From Arhodomonas aquaeolei DSM 8974 (GTDB lineage: Bacteria > Pseudomonadota > Gammaproteobacteria > Nitrococcales > Nitrococcaceae), in assembly GCF_000374645.1 (NCBI RefSeq), contig NZ_KB894801.1, forward strand, positions 372,001 through 436,000: a DNA stretch of 64,000 nucleotides. The letters are read 5' to 3'. Position 1 is the stretch's first letter; each line of letters begins with the position of its first letter. The translations under genes and the position numbers were made by a program. Below the pieces are notes generated by a model. The model was given only the letters and a program-made list of their open reading frames with translations, did not search any database and had not been told where the DNA came from. Below, in pieces: positions 1,104 to 60,440 of this stretch.

Positions 1104-2099
1104 ATGACCTACGAAATAGCAATCGTGGTAACGAACGATTTCAACGCGATGGGGACCACCGCGTTCATCGATCCACTGCGGGCGGCCAACTATCTCGACA
1201 ATGAAACGCTCTATCACTGGGAGCTTTTCTCCAGTGACGGCGGGCTACTGCGTGCCAGCAATGGAATGATGATCGACACCCGTCCCATTCCGGACATTGA
1301 TGAGAAGTGCCTCGATCTCGCCGTCATATCATCGAGCTGGACACCGGAGCAGCATTACGACGACGCCACGCTGATAAAAAGCATAAAACGCTGGGGTCGA
1401 CGCGGCATTCCGCTGTGCGCAATCGACACCGGCGCATTCATCCTTGCTCACGCGGGACAGCTGAAAAACCATTCGGCAACGACGCATTATGAGCACCTCG
1501 ATTCCCTCATGGAGGTGAACCCACAGGTTACGGCGAGTGACAATCTATTCGTCATGGACGGGAACATCCTGTCCACGTCCGGCGGAACAGCCTCGATCGA
1601 CCTGGCTCTTCATATTATCGGCGCGCAGCACGGGTACGCACTCACCAATGCGGCCGCGCGTTATATTTTTCATCAGCGAATTCGCACAACGGACGAGCGC
1701 CAGAACCACCCGGCGCACGAGCCCCTCGGGAACACCCCGTCCCAGGGCATCCGCGATGCCATCCTGTTAATGGAGGAAAACCTGGAGACCCCGTTGTCCG
1801 TGCCGGATATCGCGGCACGTGTCGGTATATCCCAGCGCCACCTGACCCGGCTGTTCCAGCGCTACACCAGACAGTCCGCGGTGCAGTACTACCGGGACAT
1901 GCGGCTCGACCGCGGGCGGGCATTCGTGACACAGACCGAAATGAGCGTTATCGAGATCGCAATGGCATGTGGGTTCTCGAGCGTCGAGCACTTCTCGCGC
2001 GCCTACCGGAGACGCTTCCGTATCAGCCCCAGGGAGGACCGCGTGGCGGGCCGGGTCCCGTTCCAGTTCCGTGCCCTGCCGCTACAGTCGAGTCGTTGA
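1104..2099 (+). CDS. GlxA-family transcriptional regulator (DJ-1/PfpI-like domain plus AraC HTH)
   Basis: 331 aa. Residues 1-185 form a class I glutamine amidotransferase/DJ-1-like ligand domain; the nucleophile elbow reads AIDTGAF, with Asp instead of Cys, as is usual in these non-enzymatic regulators. Residues about 215-310 carry two AraC-type helix-turn-helix units (IAARVGISQRHLTRLFQRY and IAMACGFSSVEHFSRAYRR). Relatives such as GbdR, CdhR and ArgR-type activators respond to betaine, carnitine or amino acids. The convergent neighbour is a betaine/choline-type binding protein, which supports a quaternary-amine ligand; that is inference. Third codon positions are noticeably less GC-biased than in most of the window. 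Confidence 0.9.
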   Translation: MTYEIAIVVTNDFNAMGTTAFIDPLRAANYLDNETLYHWELFSSDGGLLRASNGMMIDTRPIPDIDEKCLDLAVISSSWTPEQHYDDATLIKSIKRWGRRGIPLCAIDTGAFILAHAGQLKNHSATTHYEHLDSLMEVNPQVTASDNLFVMDGNILSTSGGTASIDLALHIIGAQHGYALTNAAARYIFHQRIRTTDERQNHPAHEPLGNTPSQGIRDAILLMEENLETPLSVPDIAARVGISQRHLTRLFQRYTRQSAVQYYRDMRLDRGRAFVTQTEMSVIEIAMACGFSSVEHFSRAYRRRFRISPREDRVAGRVPFQFRALPLQSSR

Positions 2100-2380
2100 C
2101 GGGCTGCGCGTCCCCCTCCCCGCCCCTGTTGCGGGAGGTCCCGGCGCGACCGGGACGGCCCCGGTGAACACACGGACGCAACGCCCGGCGCAGTGCACAC
2201 ACCCGCGTCAGGCGGAGCCGGATAACGCGATTCCACGGGCGAACACGGGAAGGAGTATGGAGAAATGGGGCCCGGAAATCCGGACACCGGAGCCGCGGTA
2301 GTAGTCCGCGCAGCGCGCGATCAACGCCCGGCATTCCGGCGTCATGTGCCGGAATACCGGGCACGGCCCAGGTTCGCGCG

Positions 2381-3316
2381 TCAGTCGGCGTAGCGCTCGC
2401 GCACGGCCGCCATGGCCGAGCCGCCATCGACCGTTTTCACGCCCTCGAGCCACTCCCCGACGGTGTCGAGGTTGGATGCGATCCACGCCGAGGCGACCTC
2501 GGAGGGCTCCCGGTCCTTCTTCGCGTATTCAAGCACCCACTTCGACTGATCGTCCTTGTCAACGACGTACTGGTTGAGGAACTTGACCACCTCGGGGCTC
2601 CGGTCGGCCAGTTTCGGATTCACGACGGTAAGGACATCGCTGGTCGCCGGCGCGATCTTCGATTCGCCCACGGCCGCGGGATAGCGGATATCGTAGGTGA
2701 TGTTCATCCAGTGGGGTTCCCAACCGAGGAAAACGACCCATTCCTTGTTCTCGATCGCGCGCCCAACCTGACTCAGCATGGCGCTGGTACTGGAGGCGAC
2801 CAGCTCCCAATCGCCCAGACCGTGGCGATCGTTGTCGATGGCGTCCTGGACATTCGAATTAAAGCCACTTCCGGGCTCAATACCGTAAATTTTATGATCG
2901 AATTTCTCGGCATACTTGTCGAGATCCGCCTCGGTTCGCACGCCGGCGTCCCAGACGTATTTCGGGACAGCGATCGCGTTGTGCGCACCCGCAATATTCG
3001 TGGTCAGAACCTCGACCGTTCCCTCTTTCTCCGCAGGGCGTATCAGGTTCGTTTCGGCGGGAATCCAGCCGCCCAGATAGATGTCGAGATCATCATTCTT
3101 GAGTGCGTTAATGCAGAAAGCGGGACTGGCATTTGTCTGCATCGTGGAATAGCCGATCGCCTCGATGAGCTGGGAAGCGACCTCGCTTTTCACGGTAACC
3201 CCGGGCCAGGTGGGAACGCCGAAACGGATTTCGGATGAATTCTTGGCTACTGCCACTGAAGAGACCAGGCAAACAGCCAGACACAAATACTGGATACAAC
3301 AGCGGACGCGATGCAT
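2381..3316 (-). CDS. Glycine betaine/choline ABC transporter substrate-binding protein (OpuAC family)
   Basis: 311 aa. A hydrophobic N-terminal signal (residues 1-24) precedes a periplasmic OpuAC domain. Conserved segments for quaternary-ammonium binding are visible: FGVPTWPG, YLGGWIPAE, GIEPGSGF and VFLGWEPHWMN, the last typical of choline/betaine/carnitine binders (ChoX, CaiX, CbcX type) whose Trp residues box the cation. AGAGG sits upstream of the ATG at 3316. No ABC ATPase or permease is adjacent, so it is an orphan that probably works with a transporter elsewhere, as Pseudomonas CbcX and BetX do. Lower GC bias than the window average, like the regulator at 1104. Confidence 0.9.
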   Translation of the reverse strand: MHRVRCCIQYLCLAVCLVSSVAVAKNSSEIRFGVPTWPGVTVKSEVASQLIEAIGYSTMQTNASPAFCINALKNDDLDIYLGGWIPAETNLIRPAEKEGTVEVLTTNIAGAHNAIAVPKYVWDAGVRTEADLDKYAEKFDHKIYGIEPGSGFNSNVQDAIDNDRHGLGDWELVASSTSAMLSQVGRAIENKEWVVFLGWEPHWMNITYDIRYPAAVGESKIAPATSDVLTVVNPKLADRSPEVVKFLNQYVVDKDDQSKWVLEYAKKDREPSEVASAWIASNLDTVGEWLEGVKTVDGGSAMAAVRERYAD

Positions 3317-3783
3317 ACTTTTCCTCTTTCCGTCTGTGGCGCCCTTCTCTATGAGGGCCCCTATTATCGGTCAGTCAGGACCGGCGTATTGCGACGCCAG
3401 ATCCATTGTCAGGGGGCCTTGCGTCACCAACCTGATCATTTTCGTCGGGTACTTGATCAGATGCGCCCCCTTGCCCCCTATTGGTGGCCACCTCCGGATG
3501 TCAGCGCTCCCGGTTCAGACCGGCGTCAGACACTCTGCAGACGTTGCCCCACGGGGCCCGTCCGCCCCACTGCCGGCGCAGCCGGGATGACGCACGGATA
3601 ACGGACTGGCTGTCGCACCACCCCATCAGGCCAGTATGACGGCTGCACGCTGTCGGCGAACGACATCGCGCACGCCGACAGGCGGCGCCGACGGGGAACA
3701 TGCCCGGGGCAGACCAAGGGAAAGGGGGTTACCGGGACGGCGCACGACGGCGGAAGGCCGGCCATCGCCCGACACCGGCAATA
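3317..3783. other. Long intergenic region upstream of the betaine-binding protein
   Basis: About 470 bases without a convincing gene; frames on both strands are short and have no recognisable domains. It includes the inverted repeat at 3432-3460 and leads into the terminator of tRNA-Arg. Confidence 0.5.
3432..3460. promoter_or_regulatory. Inverted repeat, candidate operator of the betaine-binding protein gene
   Basis: CTGATCA at 3432-3438 and its reverse complement TGATCAG at 3454-3460 are spaced 22 bp apart start to start, two helical turns, about 120 bp upstream of the start codon at 3316. Position and spacing suit a dimeric activator; the GlxA-type regulator nearby is the obvious candidate, but this is inference. 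Confidence 0.35.
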
Positions 3784-3815
3784 CAAAAAGAAAGGGCCCC
3801 ATCTCTGGAGCCCTT
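3784..3815 (-). terminator. Rho-independent terminator of tRNA-Arg
   Basis: On the minus strand a 9-bp stem (one G-U pair, arms 3792-3800 and 3807-3815, 6-nt loop) is followed by a T-rich run (TCTTTTTG). It lies just beyond the 3' end of the tRNA. Confidence 0.85.
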
Positions 3816-3821
3816 GCTATA

Positions 3822-3898
3822 TGGCGCGCCCGGGAGGATTCGAACCCCCAACCTCCTGATCCGTAGTCAGGTGCTCTATCCAGTTGAGCTACAGGCGC
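3822..3898 (-). tRNA. tRNA-Arg (ACG anticodon)
   Basis: 77 nt with encoded CCA. The cloverleaf is complete: acceptor GCGCCTG, D-arm, anticodon stem CCTGA/TCAGG around loop CTACGGA (anticodon ACG, read as ICG), T-arm with GGTTCGAATCC, and GCGC-CCA end. Confidence 0.97.
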
Positions 3899-4054
3899 TA
3901 TATCTTGTGGAAGCGCGTATTCTCGCGGTTTCGCCGGAACGCGTCAACCTCTGGTTGATGCCGGCGCCACCGGCCCTCGCGTTGCGCCCCCGTTGCCGGC
4001 TTGCCGACAACGGAGGCGAATAGTACGCGAGTGACCGGCGGATCGCAACCGCCG

Positions 4055-5509
4055 TCACCCCAGTGTGCCGGCGACATGGATCCCGGGGCGACTCTTCGTC
4101 CATCCGGTCGCCGCTTCCAGCTGAGCGGCAAGCGCCAGCAGAGTCGCTTCCTCCCCGTGTCCGGCAATAGCCTGCGTTCCCAGCGGCAATCCGTCGGTGG
4201 TTCTGTGCACCGGCATGGATATGGCCGGGTGCCCGGTCATGTTGAACGGAGCGGAGTACTGGGCATACGAGAATGTGTGTTCGAAGTATCCGCGGCAATC
4301 CAGATCCGTACGGCTGCTGGCGAACGTACCCAACGGCTGCGGCGGTGCCGGCACGGTGGGAGTAAGCAGCACATCGACGTCAGCGAGTTGCCCGTCCATG
4401 TGCCGACTCATGCCAGCGACGACGGTGTCCACGCCCATCAGATCCACCGCAGACAGGCGCTGCGCATATTCGTAGGTCGCGAGGATGCAGGGCTCCACGG
4501 CATCGTCATTGATGCGACGGCCCGTGACGCCAGCCAGCTGCTCAAGCCCCGCGGCCACAAACGCGGCCCAAACCGTCAGCGTCGCCTCACTGAACGAGTT
4601 CCAGTCGAAGCCCAGATCGCGTTCCTCGACCCGATGGCCGAGGCTCTCCATCAATCCGGCAGTCTCCTCGACCGCTGCACGCGCCTCGGCATCCACCCCT
4701 ACCCCGGACCACGAATTCGACGTCCAGGCGACACGCAAAGGCCTCGGCGATTCCACGACAGCTTCCCGGAACGGAACCCGTGGACGGGGAATACGCGCGA
4801 AGGCCCCGGACTCCGGCCCCTCCACCGCATCCAGCAGCGCCGCAGCGTCGCGAACGCTCCGCGTCAGCGCGAACTCTATGCCGAAACCGAAGAGCGGACT
4901 GGAAAAGTCCGGGCCGACGGGGACACGGCCTCGTGTCGGCTTTAGCCCAACGAGACCGTTACATGCCGCAGGAATCCGGATTGAGCCGCCGCCGTCGTTG
5001 CCGTGAGCCATCGGCAGCGCCCCCGTCGCGACCGCGACCGCGGCACCGCCACTCGATCCACCGGGGCTCAGCTCCGGATTGTATGGATTCCGTGTCGGCC
5101 CATGGAGCAGGCCTTCCGTCGTTACACAGTACCCCATTTCCGGCGTGGCTGAACGGCCGATCACTCCAAGACCGGCGTTCCTGAAGCGCCGCGCCAGAGT
5201 CGTGTCGTGGGGGATTTGAACGCCGGCCGCGAGACGGCTGCCGAGCTCGTAGGTCTGACCGGCCTCGTGGCAGACCAGATCCTTGAGCAGAAACGGCACA
5301 CCTCCGAACGGGCCGTCGGCCTTGCCCGGCCGGGTACAGCTGACGTCATAGGTTTCAACAACCGGGTTCAGCGCGGGATTGATGCGCTCGACGGCCACCC
5401 GCGCGAGTGCCGCCAAGTCCTCCGCCCGGACTTCACCGCGCCGGACCAATCCGGCAAGAGCGACCGCATCGTAACGGGCATATTCTTCCAGGGACATGAC
5501 GAGAGACAT
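4055..5509 (-). CDS. Amidase (amidase-signature family)
   Basis: 484 aa, usual length for the family. The Ser-cisSer-Lys triad is visible: Lys76 in PFLLKDL, the GGSSGG loop at 151-155, and the nucleophile Ser176 in GNDGGGSIRIP. The enzyme should hydrolyse a small carboxamide or aryl/aliphatic amide; the substrate is unknown, and there is no GatB/GatC partner, so a tRNA amidotransferase role is unlikely. AAGGAG precedes the ATG at 5509; a second in-frame ATG lies four codons on. The porin-like gene at 5554 lies 44 nt upstream on the same strand, so the two may be co-transcribed. Confidence 0.92.
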   Translation of the reverse strand: MSLVMSLEEYARYDAVALAGLVRRGEVRAEDLAALARVAVERINPALNPVVETYDVSCTRPGKADGPFGGVPFLLKDLVCHEAGQTYELGSRLAAGVQIPHDTTLARRFRNAGLGVIGRSATPEMGYCVTTEGLLHGPTRNPYNPELSPGGSSGGAAVAVATGALPMAHGNDGGGSIRIPAACNGLVGLKPTRGRVPVGPDFSSPLFGFGIEFALTRSVRDAAALLDAVEGPESGAFARIPRPRVPFREAVVESPRPLRVAWTSNSWSGVGVDAEARAAVEETAGLMESLGHRVEERDLGFDWNSFSEATLTVWAAFVAAGLEQLAGVTGRRINDDAVEPCILATYEYAQRLSAVDLMGVDTVVAGMSRHMDGQLADVDVLLTPTVPAPPQPLGTFASSRTDLDCRGYFEHTFSYAQYSAPFNMTGHPAISMPVHRTTDGLPLGTQAIAGHGEEATLLALAAQLEAATGWTKSRPGIHVAGTLG

Positions 5510-53878: not shown

Positions 53879-54196
53879 ATGGAGCTTCAGGTCAACGCCG
53901 CCGAAGGCATGCAGACATCCACGGCGCTGGAGGATCATATCCGGGCCAAGCTCGCCGGCGTGGAACGCCGCTTCGGTGAGCGTGTCACCCGCGTGGAGAC
54001 CTACCTCAAGGACGTGAATGCCGGCAAGGGCGGCGTCGATACGACATGCACGCTGGAGGCTCATCCCTCCGGGCTGAATCCGGTAGTCGTCGAGTCGCAG
54101 GCGACGGACGCCTACTCCGCGACTCACGACGCCGCCAGGAAGCTGGAGAAGGCACTGGAGCACCGCTTCGCCCGGGCTGAGGGACCACATCGTTAG
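53879..54196 (+). CDS. HPF/RaiA-family ribosome-associated protein
   Basis: 105 aa from the ATG at 53879 with AAGGAGG upstream. beta-alpha-beta-beta-beta-alpha pattern with LEDHIRAKLAGVERRFGERVTRVETYLKD and AYSATHDAARKLEKALEHRF, the second a good match to HPF helix 2. It is a short, hibernation-factor-like protein binding the ribosomal decoding region. Not next to rpoN, unlike housekeeping hpf, so probably a second copy. It is followed by a 12-bp stem-loop. Confidence 0.88.
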   Translation: MELQVNAAEGMQTSTALEDHIRAKLAGVERRFGERVTRVETYLKDVNAGKGGVDTTCTLEAHPSGLNPVVVESQATDAYSATHDAARKLEKALEHRFARAEGPHR

Positions 54197-54219
54197 GTCC
54201 GGGAAAAACCCATCGCACC

Positions 54220-54248
54220 GGCCGCCGGCGGCCCTCCCGCCGGCGGCC
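54220..54248 (+). terminator. Stem-loop after HPF-like gene
   Basis: Perfect 12-bp GC-rich stem (arms 54220-54231 and 54237-54248), 5-nt loop, 23 nt after the stop. No T-run, so terminator activity is probable rather than certain. Confidence 0.55.
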
Positions 54249-54288
54249 CCATACCCGCCTCCAGCCGCTGTCACGCGGCTGTCACCGG

Positions 54289-54323
54289 TTGTTCACAAAA
54301 GCTGTGGATAACGCTGTGCAAAA
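54289..54323. promoter_or_regulatory. Cluster of DnaA-box-like 9-mers beside AT-rich DNA
   Basis: TTGTTCACA (54289-54297, one off consensus), TGTGGATAA (54303-54311, perfect TTATCCACA in reverse) and TGTGCAAAA (54315-54323, fits TTWTNCACA in reverse) lie in 35 bp. An AT-rich run follows at 54390-54415. No dnaA, rep or par gene is near. Confidence 0.4.
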
Positions 54324-54486
54324 CCCGTAGAGACCGTCCCCAAACCCCTGACGCGGGCGGCCTCGCGTCAGATTGACGGGTTTTTCACCAGCTTATTAAA
54401 TTTCCTAAAAAACAATGGGTTGCTAGTTTCTCACGTTGTTTTCCCCGGACCCCTGGTCGCCGGGCAGTCGTGCGCCGACGACGGCT

Positions 54487-54642
54487 CCCCGCTGTGCACA
54501 ACAGGTAGCCACCAACGGCATCCCGCCCCTCAGTCAGCGACGCCCCGGGGCCCCACCCGTCCGGCAGCATCATGTTCACGAGGACAGCGCTCACGGCCCC
54601 GGGATCAGCCCCCGGCTCAGGGACACGAGCACCGGCAGGCCC
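54487..54642 (-). pseudogene. Remnant of an NCS2 permease 3' end (direct repeat copy A)
   Basis: The minus strand encodes PGAVSAVLVNMMLPDGWGPG, clearly related to the last residues of the intact NCS2 permease (PGAVTAILLNLILPGGWRPG). DNA similarity to 57511-57673 runs through the permease end and its 3' flank, starting at the shared CCCCGCTGTGCACAAC. Small indels break the frame; the rest of the gene is gone. Confidence 0.75.
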
Positions 54643-54867
54643 GTCTTTGCCATCACTGCCACGTTCCTGCGGCACGGCTTTCACCGTCGCAGTCTTGCTG
54701 TGCTCGCGGCGACGGTGCTGACCGCATTCCCGCAGGCGTACACCGGGACTCAATACGTGAGCGATGTGCTGGGTGGCGCGGCCACCGGCATCATCGCTGC
54801 CATAATGGTGCGCATCCTTTACCGCGAAGGCTCGCGGCTTGACCGCCTGCTCACGAGCACTTGGTGA
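54643..54867 (+). pseudogene. C-terminal remnant of a PAP2-type phosphatase
   Basis: The plus-strand frame reads VFAITATFLRHGFHRRSLAV and then YTGTQYVSDVLGGAATGI, matching the end of PAP2/PgpB-like proteins (third catalytic motif HYxSDVxxG with His changed to Gln). Motifs 1 and 2 are missing. The frame has no start or ribosome site of its own and abuts the NCS2 remnant, so it is a truncated relic. Confidence 0.7.
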
Positions 54868-54887
54868 TTGGGGGCACGGATCCTTTG

Positions 54888-57035
54888 ATGGAGCGATTGT
54901 TCCACGCCATCCTGCCATCCATCGAGCACTTCCACATGCTCGGTTACTGGGTGGCCTTCTTCGCAGCGCTGCTGGAGACGGCGCTCGTGGCCGGATGGTT
55001 TTTGCCCGGCTCTACCCTCCTGCTGTTGCTGGGAGGCATGGCGGCTGGCAGCTACCTGGATTTCGGGGACCTGCTGCTGTTCGCCATCGCCGGCGCAGTG
55101 CTGGGGGATAACGTCAACTACTGGCTGGGCGAGCGCTACGGCAGCCAATGGGCACGTGACGGCGTCTGGTTCCTGACACCCGGCCATTTTGAACGGGCCC
55201 ACCGCTTTTTTGACCGGCATGGTGCCAGGAGCGTTTTCCTCGGCCGCTTTATACCTAGCGTGAAGGAAATCGCGCCGTTCGTGGCAGGCACCGTGAGAAT
55301 GCGCTATCGCACGTTCCTGTTCTGGAACCTGCTGGGCGCCGTCGGATGGGGACTGCAGTGGGTCGGCGGCGGCTATCTGTTCGGGCAGTCGTTCAGGGTT
55401 GCGCAGACCTGGATGTCGCGGGCCGGTATGGCGTTACTGGCCGTCCTGCTCTTGTGGGCGCTGCTTTGGCTTCTGCAGCGCTTCATCAAGCGCAAGGGCC
55501 GCGACCTCTGGTGGGTGGCGGTTTCGCTCACGCGTTCGGTAATGACGGCCCTGGCTCGCAATGCCTACGTGCGGCGCTGGGTACGCCGCCACCCACGAAG
55601 CGTCCGCCTCGTGATGAATCGTTTCGATCGCCGGCATTTTTCGGGCCTGCCGCTGACGGTTCCAGCCCTGGCGTTTACCTATGTGCTGGCCCTGTTCGCG
55701 GGCATCGTCGAGGACGTCGTCACCTCCGATCCAATCGTCGCAATCGATCATGCGACAGCCCAACTGGTCGCCGCCTTTCGCACACCGTCGGCTATTCCTC
55801 CGTTCGTGTGGATAACGGATCTCGGTCAGCCGCCCGTGGTCTTCGCGCTGCTGGCCTCGACCGGCCTGGTGCTCTGGCTCGTCAATCGGAAATACGCGGT
55901 TGCGGGGTTGCTGATGTCGAGCCTGGGAGCAACGGCTTTCACCACCCTGGGCAAATTGGCCTTTGAGCGGCCACGGCCGGCCGGGGCCGTACTGCTCGAG
56001 ACCTCCTATTCCTTCCCTAGTGGGCACGCCACCATCGCCGTCGCCTGCTACGGTTTCCTGGGCTACCTGCTGATCCGCTCGGCGGCCCGCTGGAAGGCCC
56101 GTGTCAATCTGTTCTTCGCGACTGCCGGAGTTATCCTCCTGATCGGTCTCAGCCGCATCGTGCTCGGCGTGCACTATTTGAGTGATGTCTGGGCCGGTTA
56201 CCTGGTCGGTGCACTGTGGCTGATCGCTGGCGTCACCCTGACCGAATGGCTCACTGCGGGCGGCAGGATCGACTGGCGGGCACCCACCGAACGATTCCGA
56301 AAGGCCTCGGCCTTCGGCGTGATCGCCATCGCGTCCGCTGGGTTCGTGACCTATGCAGCCACCCGCACGCCGCCAGCCCCGGTTCCCGCAGCGGAAACAG
56401 TCATCCAGGTCAATCGTCCTCTGGACGAAATGTTACGTGCGCGGAAACTTACCAACACCTCATCCGTGCTCGGCGCACCGGGACAACCGCTATCCTTTGC
56501 CATCGTCACGCCTGGCGCGGACAAACTGTCCGCGCTTCTGGACCGAGCAGGCTGGCTCTCCGCCGACAGTCCAGATCCAACGAACCTGCTGCGCCTCGCC
56601 CGACAGGGGCTCGACTACACCACGGCTCCCCTCGCGCCGGCCCTCTGGAACGACCGTGTCAACGATCTGGCTTTCGAACGACCGATCCAGAACTCGCAGG
56701 GCAAGGCGGTCGTAACCGTCAGGCTATGGCAAACCGCCTTCCGTGTCGGTGCGGAACCGATCTTCGTGGGGGTGGCGCGGACATATACCGGGGTCCGCTG
56801 GGGCGTTCTGCACACGGTCTCGCCTGATGTGGATGCCGCAACCGAACGATTCGTCGAATCGCTCAAACACACCGCGCAGCCGCTCACGTTATGCCAGCGC
56901 TCGTTGATGGCCCCGATGACAGGCTCCTATGTGATGGGCGATCGCTTCTTTACGCAGGGGCAGCTATGGCTGCTCGATCCGGGCGGCCGCACCAATACGG
57001 CAGCCCTTTGTGGCGCTCACAGGTCGAGGCAATGA
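54888..57035 (+). CDS. DedA - PAP2 phosphatase - LssY fusion membrane protein
   Basis: 715 aa from the ATG at 54888 (a TTG nine codons upstream is less likely). Domain 1 (about 20-200) is a DedA/SNARE-associated protein with the family motif GRFIPSVKEIAPFVAG. Domain 2 (about 255-450) is a PAP2 phosphatase with all three catalytic motifs: KLAFERPRP, SFPSGHAT and SRIVLGVHYLSD. Domain 3 (about 480-690) is an LssY C-terminal domain (DRVNDLAFE, VGVARTYTGVRWGVLHTVSPDVDAATERF). DedA proteins include the undecaprenyl-phosphate translocase; PAP2 enzymes dephosphorylate undecaprenyl pyrophosphate or phosphatidyl lipids. Codons are less GC-biased than in neighbours. It is coupled to dgkA. Confidence 0.9.
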   Translation: MERLFHAILPSIEHFHMLGYWVAFFAALLETALVAGWFLPGSTLLLLLGGMAAGSYLDFGDLLLFAIAGAVLGDNVNYWLGERYGSQWARDGVWFLTPGHFERAHRFFDRHGARSVFLGRFIPSVKEIAPFVAGTVRMRYRTFLFWNLLGAVGWGLQWVGGGYLFGQSFRVAQTWMSRAGMALLAVLLLWALLWLLQRFIKRKGRDLWWVAVSLTRSVMTALARNAYVRRWVRRHPRSVRLVMNRFDRRHFSGLPLTVPALAFTYVLALFAGIVEDVVTSDPIVAIDHATAQLVAAFRTPSAIPPFVWITDLGQPPVVFALLASTGLVLWLVNRKYAVAGLLMSSLGATAFTTLGKLAFERPRPAGAVLLETSYSFPSGHATIAVACYGFLGYLLIRSAARWKARVNLFFATAGVILLIGLSRIVLGVHYLSDVWAGYLVGALWLIAGVTLTEWLTAGGRIDWRAPTERFRKASAFGVIAIASAGFVTYAATRTPPAPVPAAETVIQVNRPLDEMLRARKLTNTSSVLGAPGQPLSFAIVTPGADKLSALLDRAGWLSADSPDPTNLLRLARQGLDYTTAPLAPALWNDRVNDLAFERPIQNSQGKAVVTVRLWQTAFRVGAEPIFVGVARTYTGVRWGVLHTVSPDVDAATERFVESLKHTAQPLTLCQRSLMAPMTGSYVMGDRFFTQGQLWLLDPGGRTNTAALCGAHRSRQ

Positions 57036-57388
57036 AAAACCAGTCATTCCCGAAAAAACTACGCCATGCCATCTCCGGCATCGGTTTCGCATGGAATAGG
57101 GAACAGAACTTTCGCACGCAGGTCGTTCTCGGCGCCGTCACCTTCGTGGTGTTCTCCATCGTTCGGCCGGCCACATTCTGGTGGGCACTTATCGTGCTGT
57201 GTGTCGCGTTGGTACTCGTTGCAGAGTTGCTGAATTCGGCCATCGAGGCGCTGACCGATCACCTCCACCCGGATCTGCACCCGGTCGTGGGCAGGGTAAA
57301 GGATATGCTCGCCGGAATGGTGCTGGTAATGAGCATCGGCGCAGCGATCGTGGCGATGATCACCCTGTACGCCACGCTCGCCGCCTAG
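57032..57388 (+). CDS. dgkA: Diacylglycerol/undecaprenol kinase
   Basis: 118 aa with three membrane helices. Conserved DgkA positions are intact: W/N-E-NFR near residue 22, VAELLNSAIEALTD (catalytic Glu and Asn) and HPVVGRVKDM. In proteobacteria DgkA phosphorylates diacylglycerol; homologues elsewhere phosphorylate undecaprenol. The ATG overlaps the stop of the DedA-PAP2 gene (ATGA), so the two are translated together. AT-richer third positions than the surroundings. Confidence 0.93.
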   Translation: MKNQSFPKKLRHAISGIGFAWNREQNFRTQVVLGAVTFVVFSIVRPATFWWALIVLCVALVLVAELLNSAIEALTDHLHPDLHPVVGRVKDMLAGMVLVMSIGAAIVAMITLYATLAA

Positions 57389-57510
57389 GGCCACCGCGGT
57401 TCGACAGGGAATGCGCCGGACTGCGTTGTCGACGAAGCGCTACTCCGCAGCCCCTCCCGGTGCGGCCGGCCCCTGCCCTTTCGCGTTCCGAAAAGGACAC
57501 CGGCGGCGGC

Positions 57511-57673
57511 CCCCGCTGTGCACAACGGGTGGTCACCGACGGCATCCTGCTCCTCAACCGGCGCCGTCCCCCGGTCGCCATCCGCCGGGCAGGATCAGGT
57601 TCAGGAGGATGGCGGTCACGGCCCCCGGGATCAGGCCCGAGTCCATCATCGAGCGCGCGCTCTCCGGCAGGCC
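57511..57673. repeat. Direct repeat copy B (3' end of NCS2 permease and flank)
   Basis: Matches 54487-54642 in the same orientation, with CCCCGCTGTGCACAAC identical in both. It covers the last 120 bases of the permease gene and 43 bases beyond its stop. The two copies bracket the DedA-PAP2-dgkA segment. Confidence 0.75.
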
Positions 57674-58885
57674 GGCATAGATTTCCGGGTGTTCGGGCAG
57701 GCCGAAGGCCATCGCCAGCGACATGCCGATAATGACCATGTTGCGCCGGCTGAACGGCACGTGGCTGAGCATCTTGATACCCGCGCTGGCGATCATGCCG
57801 AACATGATCAGCACCGCACCGCCGAGCACCGCGTTGGGGATGGCACCGATGATCGCGCCGAATTTGGGGAACAGCCCTGCGACCAGCAGGAACACGCCGC
57901 CGATGGCCACGACATAACGGCTGATCACGCCAGTGAGGGCCACCATGCCCACGTTCTGTGAAAAGCTGATCTGCGGGAAGGCACTCCAGAACGCGGCGAG
58001 CACGGTGGACAGCCCGTCCGCGGTAACCCCGCCGCTGAGCTCTCGCTCGCTGGGCTCCCGGTCCGCCCCGCCGACGGTGATCCCCACGAGGTCGCCGACG
58101 GACTCGGAGACGGTGACCAGCGAGAGCAGCACCATGGGCACAATCGCGCTCAGGTGGAACTCCATGCCGATCTCCCAGGGCAGCGGCACGGACACCCATG
58201 AGGCAGCCGCGACGTCGGAGAAATCCACCAGTCCGAACAGCGCGGCGATCACGAAGCCCGCCACCAGCCCCACCAGCGGCCCGATCTCGGCGATGAAGCC
58301 ACGGGCAAACTGATGTAGACCCACGGTGATCACGAACACCAGCGCCGCCAGCGCGATATGGTAGGGTGCGCCGAAGTCCGGCGCCCCGAAACCGCCCGCC
58401 GTGTATGCGAATCCGACCGGCAGCAGCAGCACGCCGATCATGATCACGAACGTCCCCATCACCACCGGCGGGAACAGGAAGCGCACCCAGCGCATGCACA
58501 GGCCGACGACGGCCATGGCGACACCCCCGGCCAACGCCGCACCGAACACAGACGGCAGTCCCTGGGTACTGGCGATAGGGATCATCACCGGCACGAAGCC
58601 GAAGCTGGTGCCCATCACCACCGGCAACCGTGCACCGATGCGTCCGACACCGAGTGACTGAACCAGTGTCGCGACACCGGCGATGAACATCGCGGCCTGG
58701 ATCAGCGCCGTGGTCTGCGCCGCCGGCAGATCCACCGCCCCGGCGATCACCACCGGTACGGTGACGTTGCCGACGAACATCGCCAGCACGTGCTGAATGC
58801 TCAGCGGAATGGCACGCCGCAGCGGCGGCATGTAATCGACATCCCCCCTCTGCTCCGGGCGCACTTCTTCTGTCTGCTCGCTCAT
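57554..58885 (-). CDS. NCS2 nucleobase:cation symporter (xanthine/uracil permease family)
   Basis: 443 aa, about 12-14 helices, from the ATG at 58885 (GAGAGGAG). NCS2 marks: NVTVPVVIAGAVDL, PVVMGTSFGF and the signature SESVGDLVG; QNVGMVALTGVISRYV is typical of the xanthine/uric acid branch, so purine uptake is more likely than uracil. Divergent from the MATE gene across a 217-nt region with repeats. Confidence 0.92.
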   Translation of the reverse strand: MSEQTEEVRPEQRGDVDYMPPLRRAIPLSIQHVLAMFVGNVTVPVVIAGAVDLPAAQTTALIQAAMFIAGVATLVQSLGVGRIGARLPVVMGTSFGFVPVMIPIASTQGLPSVFGAALAGGVAMAVVGLCMRWVRFLFPPVVMGTFVIMIGVLLLPVGFAYTAGGFGAPDFGAPYHIALAALVFVITVGLHQFARGFIAEIGPLVGLVAGFVIAALFGLVDFSDVAAASWVSVPLPWEIGMEFHLSAIVPMVLLSLVTVSESVGDLVGITVGGADREPSERELSGGVTADGLSTVLAAFWSAFPQISFSQNVGMVALTGVISRYVVAIGGVFLLVAGLFPKFGAIIGAIPNAVLGGAVLIMFGMIASAGIKMLSHVPFSRRNMVIIGMSLAMAFGLPEHPEIYAGLPESARSMMDSGLIPGAVTAILLNLILPGGWRPGDGAG

Positions 58886-59102: not shown

Positions 59103-60440
59103 ATGACCCCCGAAGAACTCCACCGCACCGGCCTGGGCCGGGGACTGTTCCAGATGACCTGGCCGATGCTGTTCGGCGTGCTCTCCCTGCTGGGCTTCCA
59201 GCTCGTGGACAGCGCCTTCATCGGCCAGCTCGGCGGCCGCCCGCTGGCCGCCCTGGGCTTCACCATACCCTTCATGCAGCTGGTGATCGGCACCCAGGTG
59301 GGCATCGGCATCGCCACCACCGCGCTGGTTTCGCGCGCGCTCGGCGGCGGCGAGCCCGAGCGCGCCCAGCGTCTGTGTGGACTGGTGGTGATGACCGGCA
59401 GCGCGATCGTGCTGGCGCTGGTGGTGATCCTGTGGTTCCTGCGCTCGTGGGCGGTGAGCCTGCTCGGCGCCGAACCCTCGCTGCTGCCGCTGATCGCCCG
59501 GTACTGGGCGCCGTGGCTCGCCAGTGCGTGGATGGGGGCGTTCCTGTACTTCGGTTACAGCGTGCTGCGCGCCCACGGCAACACCCGCCTGCCCGGACTG
59601 TGGATGGTCCTCACCAGCCTGATCAACCTGGTGCTGGACCCGCTGTTCATCTTCGTCTTCGACTGGGGTCTGCCCGGTGCCGCCTGGGCGACGCTCACCG
59701 CCTTCGGCGTCGGCGCGCTGGCGGTCTACCCCGCCCTGGCCCGTCGCCAGTGCCTGCGCCTGGACGTGCGCGTTCTGGGGGTGCTGCGGGCACTGGGCGG
59801 CATTGCCGCCATCAGCGGGCCGGCGATGCTCAGCCAGCTCATGCCACCGCTCTCGGCAATGCTCGCCACGCGGGTAATCGCCGGTTTCGGCGTGGACGCG
59901 GTCGGTGCCTGGGGCCTGGGTACTCGCATGGAGTTCTTTTCCATCGTGGTCGTGCTCGCGCTGACCATGTCCCTGCCGCCGCTGGTCGGGCGGCTGCGTG
60001 GTGCGGGCGATATCGTCACGATCCGCCGGCTGGTGCGCCTCGCCGTGGGCTTCGTGCTCGCCTGGCAGCTGCTGCTCGCGCTGATCTGGTTCCTGGCGAG
60101 CACGCCGCTGGCGGGGGTGCTGAGCGCGGATCCGGCCGTGGCTGACCGCCTCGCCGCCTATCTCCGGCTGGTGCCGTGGAGCTTTGGGGCACTCGGGGTG
60201 ACCATGATCATGGTCTCTGTGAACAACGCACTGGGGCTGCCGCTGCGCGCCATGATCACCTCGGCGCTACGACTCTTCGCGTGCTACCTGCCGGCACTCT
60301 GGGGCGGTGCCCAGCTCGTCGGGCTGACCGGTGCATTCGCCGGAGCCCTGGCGGGCAATCTCGCCGCCGGCGCCACCGCCGTTACCCTCTATCGTGCGGG
60401 TATGGCCCGGCTGCGCGGGCCGGAACCCGCGAGCGCCTGA
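59103..60440 (+). CDS. MATE-family efflux transporter
   Basis: 445 aa, 12 helices, from the ATG at 59103. MATE features: FQMTWPMLFGVLSLLGFQLVDSAFIGQLG at the start, then ALGFTIPFMQLVIG and the matching second half GPAMLSQLMPPLSAMLATRVIAGFGVDAVGAWG. Expels cationic compounds in exchange for Na+ or H+. It overlaps nothing but is followed 2 nt later by an EamA transporter. Confidence 0.92.
   Translation: MTPEELHRTGLGRGLFQMTWPMLFGVLSLLGFQLVDSAFIGQLGGRPLAALGFTIPFMQLVIGTQVGIGIATTALVSRALGGGEPERAQRLCGLVVMTGSAIVLALVVILWFLRSWAVSLLGAEPSLLPLIARYWAPWLASAWMGAFLYFGYSVLRAHGNTRLPGLWMVLTSLINLVLDPLFIFVFDWGLPGAAWATLTAFGVGALAVYPALARRQCLRLDVRVLGVLRALGGIAAISGPAMLSQLMPPLSAMLATRVIAGFGVDAVGAWGLGTRMEFFSIVVVLALTMSLPPLVGRLRGAGDIVTIRRLVRLAVGFVLAWQLLLALIWFLASTPLAGVLSADPAVADRLAAYLRLVPWSFGALGVTMIMVSVNNALGLPLRAMITSALRLFACYLPALWGGAQLVGLTGAFAGALAGNLAAGATAVTLYRAGMARLRGPEPASA

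Follow-up and report, generated by a model that had tools for sequence, protein, structure and literature searches.

Lipid genes between two copies of a permease 3' end in Arhodomonas aquaeolei, most likely a scar of old DNA uptake

Introduction

The closest described counterparts of the arrangement analysed here come from conjugation experiments in E. coli, in which 56 of 60 clones gave a duplication PCR product and 14 sequenced clones had 109-950 bp of a gene end duplicated, which was ascribed to a single crossover of a shortened circle (PMC3240628). True HFIR accounted for 4 of the 60 clones and, according to that report, generally deletes recipient DNA (PMC3240628). An HFIR-like mechanism has also been proposed for effector-immunity module insertions in Vibrio T6SS loci, where module gain leaves displaced gene 3' ends behind (PMC5361080). 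As to the genes concerned, DedA-PAP2 fusions have already been described, e.g. P. aeruginosa PA4011 (PMC10127716, PMC12893004), for which PMC12893004 gives a partial colistin phenotype. LssY is absent from the literature found that combines two of LssY, DedA and PAP2, within the parts of those sources that were available.

Here we describe a natural locus in a window of 64,000 nucleotides (the whole stretch of A. aquaeolei DNA that was analysed) in which an insert of ~2.9 kb, filled by lipid genes, is flanked by two copies of the 3' end of an NCS2 permease gene. As in the E. coli integrations, apparently foreign DNA lies between gene-end copies with no integrase seen nearby, and the ~170 bp duplicated here compare with the 109-950 bp reported there; those integrations were experimental and recent, whereas this one is old and one copy has decayed. 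The locus resembles the Vibrio modules in the gene 3' end that is left behind, and differs from those toxin locus arrays in being a non-toxin locus and a single event (PMC5361080). We consider the observation real and most likely an ordinary gene-transfer scar of old DNA uptake, which would make it a readable natural case of foreign genes entering a chromosome without a dedicated integrase and leaving a gene-end scar.

The direct repeat

The features of the locus, in window coordinates and with the basis of each call in brackets, are as follows.

53879..54196, plus strand: left neighbour, a ribosome hibernation factor-like (S30AE) gene (PF02482)
54475..54641, minus strand: R1, decayed second copy of the end of the permease gene with its 3' flank (local alignment, blastn)
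54642..54867, plus strand: PAP2 relic, 5' half missing (PF01569 at E 0.018, below cut-off; translation)
54888..57035, plus strand: intact gene for a DedA(VTT)-PAP2-LssY_C fusion of 715 aa (Pfam VTT_dom, PAP2 and LssY_C)
57032..57388, plus strand: dgkA, 118 aa (PF01219 DAGK_prokar, 102 bits)
57389..57499, no strand: spacer between dgkA and R2 with no recognised feature (sequence; Rfam)
57500..57673, minus strand: R2, end of the intact permease gene with its 3' flank (local alignment)
57554..58885, minus strand: intact NCS2 permease gene, PbuX subfamily, 443 aa (profile searches)
59103..60440, plus strand: right neighbour, a MATE efflux gene (PF01554)

The initial annotation had proposed that two copies of a permease 3' end bracket the cassette, the downstream one belonging to an intact permease and the upstream one being degenerate. 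Local alignment of R1 (54475-54641) with R2 (57500-57673) scores 82.5, against a maximum of 22.0 in 300 single-base shuffles and a 99th percentile of 29.5 among 1963 random pairs of 500 bases from the window, where the maximum of 82.5 presumably represents the repeat itself in swapped order, the exclusion having been one-sided. By blastn the copies are 80% identical over 140 columns (E 1.4e-28). Searched with its surroundings against the whole genome at E 1e-3, R1 finds two copies, itself and R2, and a search of 250,257 bases of the contig for direct pairs of at least 60 bases, no more than 10 kb apart, ranks it first of three. Chance likeness is ruled out by the shuffles, the blastn E value and this contig-wide ranking, and the bracketing by two copies of the permease end stands.

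The repeat comprises ~112 terminal coding bases of the permease gene and 54 bases of 3' flank, at ~80% identity. Both copies contain the previously noted 16-mer (54487-54502 and 57511-57526) and encode the PGAV-x-A-x-L-x-N peptide, as PGAVSAVLVN in R1 and PGAVTAILLN in R2; the segment had been taken to begin at the 16-mer, 12 bases inside the repeat, which starts at 54475.

R2 is the end of an intact gene, as proposed: its 443-aa product exceeds the PbuX cut-off (436.6 vs 414.15 bits). R1 is frameshifted relative to this end, and 7 of 23 aligned residues differ, by conservative changes. At four of the seven sites the R1 residue occurs in none of 55 homologues; at the remaining three it occurs in 1 or 2 of them, and the R2 residue in 4 to 20. 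Because the R1 residues are mostly unlike those of the homologues, the changes appear to lie mainly on R1, which would thus have decayed after duplication, and the four residues seen in no homologue speak against derivation of R1 from a functional paralogue or xenologue. Two further comparisons are weak because the stretch is short: third codon positions differ at 9 of 28 sites versus 10 of 57 first and second positions (p 0.17, not significant), and the 3' flank is no more diverged (8 of 54 columns) than the coding part (24 of 112; Fisher p 0.40). A permease profile detected no convincing further permease fragment in 54200-57550, in a weak scan that scored R1 itself at only E 0.86; its best match (E 0.009) is on the opposite strand and to a different part of the profile, and was taken as chance.

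Some minor observations concern the DNA next to R1 and repeats elsewhere. Just to its left, a 24-base stretch (54312-54335) resembles the R1/R2 core, a likeness whose chance estimate is biased in that the pattern was derived from the two copies themselves. The surrounding 54280-54475 is AT-rich, with a possible long hairpin and two neighbouring DnaA-box-like sites (54303-54311 and 54315-54323); the window holds three such sites vs 0.27 expected. A chromosomal origin at this position was rejected, the best DnaA match being on another contig and GC skew staying below zero in each 10-kb step across 250 kb. Outside the window, a second direct repeat is present on contig C2 of G000 (449175-449344 and 450848-451019; 72% over 172 columns, 1.7 kb apart).

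Genes between the repeats

R1 ends where the PAP2 relic begins, so that a single joint, at 54641/54642, truncates permease as well as PAP2; the joint is without proven microhomology, the ancestral PAP2 sequence not being available for comparison. The relic covers profile positions 66-124 of 130 (15.2 bits vs a cut-off of 27.2), and its translation, read by eye, lacks the S, R and H of the SRx5Hx3D motif, leaving an incomplete domain. The fusion, on the other hand, has all three PAP2 motifs (KX6RP, PSGH and SRX5HX3D at residues 356, 377 and 422), and its stop is overlapped by 4 bases by the start of dgkA. DgkA is recognised by profile and by motif (ExxNSAIExxxD at residue 65); NCBIfam models gave no match to it at E 0.01. 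An Rfam scan of the spacer found nothing above a gathering score, a single miRNA match (22.2 bits vs a gathering score of 70) being taken as chance and not as an RNA element, and a promoter/terminator scan returned one of each, no excess over shuffles.

The cassette had been described as less GC-biased in its codons, and this holds. GC3 is 0.759 for the fusion and 0.763 for dgkA, with 12 of 137 ORFs at or below each, compared with a mean of 0.875 (sd 0.063) over these ORFs, which were called mechanically and include the fusion ORF itself and apparently some wrong-frame ORFs at the low end. In codon adaptation, 6 of the 137 are at or below the fusion and 8 at or below dgkA. The permease, by contrast, is ordinary (GC3 0.867, 46 of 137 at or below), as are the MATE gene and the aminotransferase gene to the left by the same measures. 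Low GC3 by itself does not set the insert apart, because the S30AE gene to its left is also low (0.790, 15 of 137 at or below). Overall, codon use supports a foreign origin of the cassette. Another block of low-GC3 ORFs, at ~1104-5509 of the window, is possibly a second foreign stretch.

Neighbourhood and relatives

No integrase or transposase was detected among 16 proteins, a subset of the ORFs, scanned between 45962 and 63661. Other genera have close homologues of either the left aminotransferase or the right MATE gene, but none of 16 loci around these flank genes showed both, and the flanks are thus not syntenic there. A contig scan, which may omit records very near the genome of the window, yielded 53 relatives of the permease, almost all of them in Halomonas and allied genera; cassette proteins had no match at E 1e-4 in the DNA examined around them. 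Leaving aside L101, which has an early stop, the 52 permease loci of other species show no second 3' end of similar length in the DNA examined; short second matches occur at 14 of the 52, none longer than 52 columns. In three genomes of one genus (loci L186, L187 and L188), the MATE gene has a remote NCS2 homologue (29-31%) 1-7 kb upstream, in the same relative orientation, because of which the permease-MATE neighbourhood may be old.

The fusion has matches in 64 of 76 relatives at E 1e-3, a set with no other genome of the genus (best outside its own genome 8.9e-41), and in 250 of 369 genomes of a class-wide sample, many of them over the DedA and PAP2 parts at ~25-40% identity. Far stronger matches occur in G101 (48%), G215 (45%) and G409 (47%; by tblastn 48.0, 44.6 and 41.3%, respectively). 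In G101 and G215 the fusion is followed directly by dgkA (47.8 and 50.4% identity), as in the cassette; the neighbours there are different, with an MFS-like transporter gene read from translations, and no permease match was found in the stretches examined. G308 has a partial fusion and then dgkA, whereas G409 has no dgkA match in the 19 kb examined and has a PAP2-like ORF upstream of the fusion, whose resemblance to the relic is weak (25% over 48 residues). Within the flanks examined, a dgkA match is present at 8 of 57 distinct loci that match the fusion; the pairing thus recurs in scattered Gammaproteobacteria, but at a minority of loci. Plasmid carriage was considered and rejected: 384 plasmid records match the fusion, all below 60% identity and 7 covering at least 80%.

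Origin of the segment

The insert is not bounded alike on its two sides. At R2 the spacer meets the permease flank tail to tail, and at R1 two cut genes abut, which one homologous and one illegitimate joint would explain in one event. We favour, at about even chances, an old horizontal acquisition in which a joined donor fragment entered by a single crossover in a shared permease end. On this fragment, a partial PAP2 gene, the fusion and dgkA would have met the 3' end of the donor's own permease gene tail to tail. Its ends would have been joined illegitimately, with the permease cut 112 bases from its stop and PAP2 cut mid-gene, and the resulting circle would have entered the chromosome through one crossover in the common permease end. 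This single event would yield R1, the cassette, R2 and the intact permease; later, R1 and the PAP2 stump would have decayed while the fusion and dgkA stayed open.

The uniqueness of the repeat in the genome, the changes lying mainly on R1, the truncation at the joint and the low GC3 and codon adaptation of the cassette, unlike the permease, all count for acquisition, as do the lack of a recombinase among the 16 proteins, the distant fusion-dgkA pairs and the E. coli precedent. The repeat, the polarity of its decay, the composition and the truncation are observations, whereas the donor arrangement, the end joining and the crossover are inferred; against the account, the searches turned up no empty site and no donor arrangement. 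Since HFIR generally deletes recipient DNA and the permease here is intact, the single-crossover variant is favoured (PMC3240628).

The initial annotation had left insertion with duplication and loss of most of a tandem permease side by side. The former is now the better supported, because the changes are mainly on R1, the flank is not more diverged and no convincing extra permease fragment was detected. The latter, though rather unlikely, keeps real weight, as the 76 relatives searched include no other genome of the genus and the flanks are not syntenic in other genera. It would have the permease gene duplicated with its 3' flank, a lipid operon between the copies, and a deletion of the 5' parts of both the left permease and PAP2; two divergent genes have lost their 5' ends at the joint, as one deletion would bring about, and the conservative nature of the R1 changes also fits. 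However, the four R1 residues found in no homologue are unlike a functional paralogue, the insert has no convincing permease fragment in the (weak) scan, and a comparable second 3' end is missing from the DNA examined at all 52 loci of other species.

Two other routes appear improbable to a similar degree. Repair of a staggered break could have captured a foreign fragment, with end filling duplicating ~170 bases of the target; this would give the same final layout with no permease end needed in the donor, but duplications of ~170 bases would be long for bacterial end filling. The locus shares the layout of islands inserted at gene 3' ends, which typically pair an intact gene end with a degenerate copy at the opposite side, and might be what is left of an integrative element that attached at the permease 3' end, restored the gene end, left a degenerate far copy and lost its integrase. 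Against such a remnant are the 16 scanned neighbours, free of recombinases, the small size of the insert, occupied by lipid genes, and the 52 related permease ends, none with a comparable repeat. A still bolder version, with a true attachment site in the permease 3' end and the segment as a stripped integrative element shuttling a lipid-recycling module among Gammaproteobacteria, is very improbable. Recurrent integration at permease ends was rejected, none of the same 52 loci having a comparable copy.

Predicted function

The name 'lipid-carrier' cassette, given in the initial annotation, describes a role that can be assigned at the family level only. Our best guess at this level is that the fusion and DgkA form an inner-membrane pair for recycling lipid phosphate, in which the PAP2 domain would dephosphorylate a lipid phosphate or pyrophosphate, the DedA domain would move lipid phosphate across the membrane, and DgkA would re-phosphorylate a lipid alcohol or diacylglycerol. 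DedA undecaprenyl-phosphate flippases depend on E39 and D51 (12 apart) and R130 and R136 (6 apart) in YghB, according to the section of PMC10127716 cited here. By spacing, without a YghB alignment, the DedA part of the fusion has E30 and R120, the other two positions being S42 and K126, and the fusion falls below the NCBIfam cut-offs for PRK10847 (99.4 vs 236 bits) and UptA (46.3 vs 250 and 39.9 vs 300). Because two of the four essential residues are missing by spacing and the DedA and UptA cut-offs are not reached, labelling this part an undecaprenyl-phosphate flippase would be premature.

In domain order, the fusion resembles PA4011-type proteins as described, with an N-terminal DedA domain and then PAP2; the cassette differs in its additional LssY_C domain and downstream dgkA. 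The recurrent pairing of DedA-PAP2-LssY_C with dgkA may offer a modest lead to a role of LssY_C in lipid-phosphate turnover.

A PAP2 protein that stands alone and shares 50.7% identity with the PAP2 part of the fusion is encoded on an Acinetobacter plasmid (L132, 7776-8771), close to metal efflux genes of CusA/CzcA type. In G409 (L135, 7631-15088) the PAP2-like ORF and the fusion lie ~2.4 kb from a mercuric reductase-like ORF, identified by reading.
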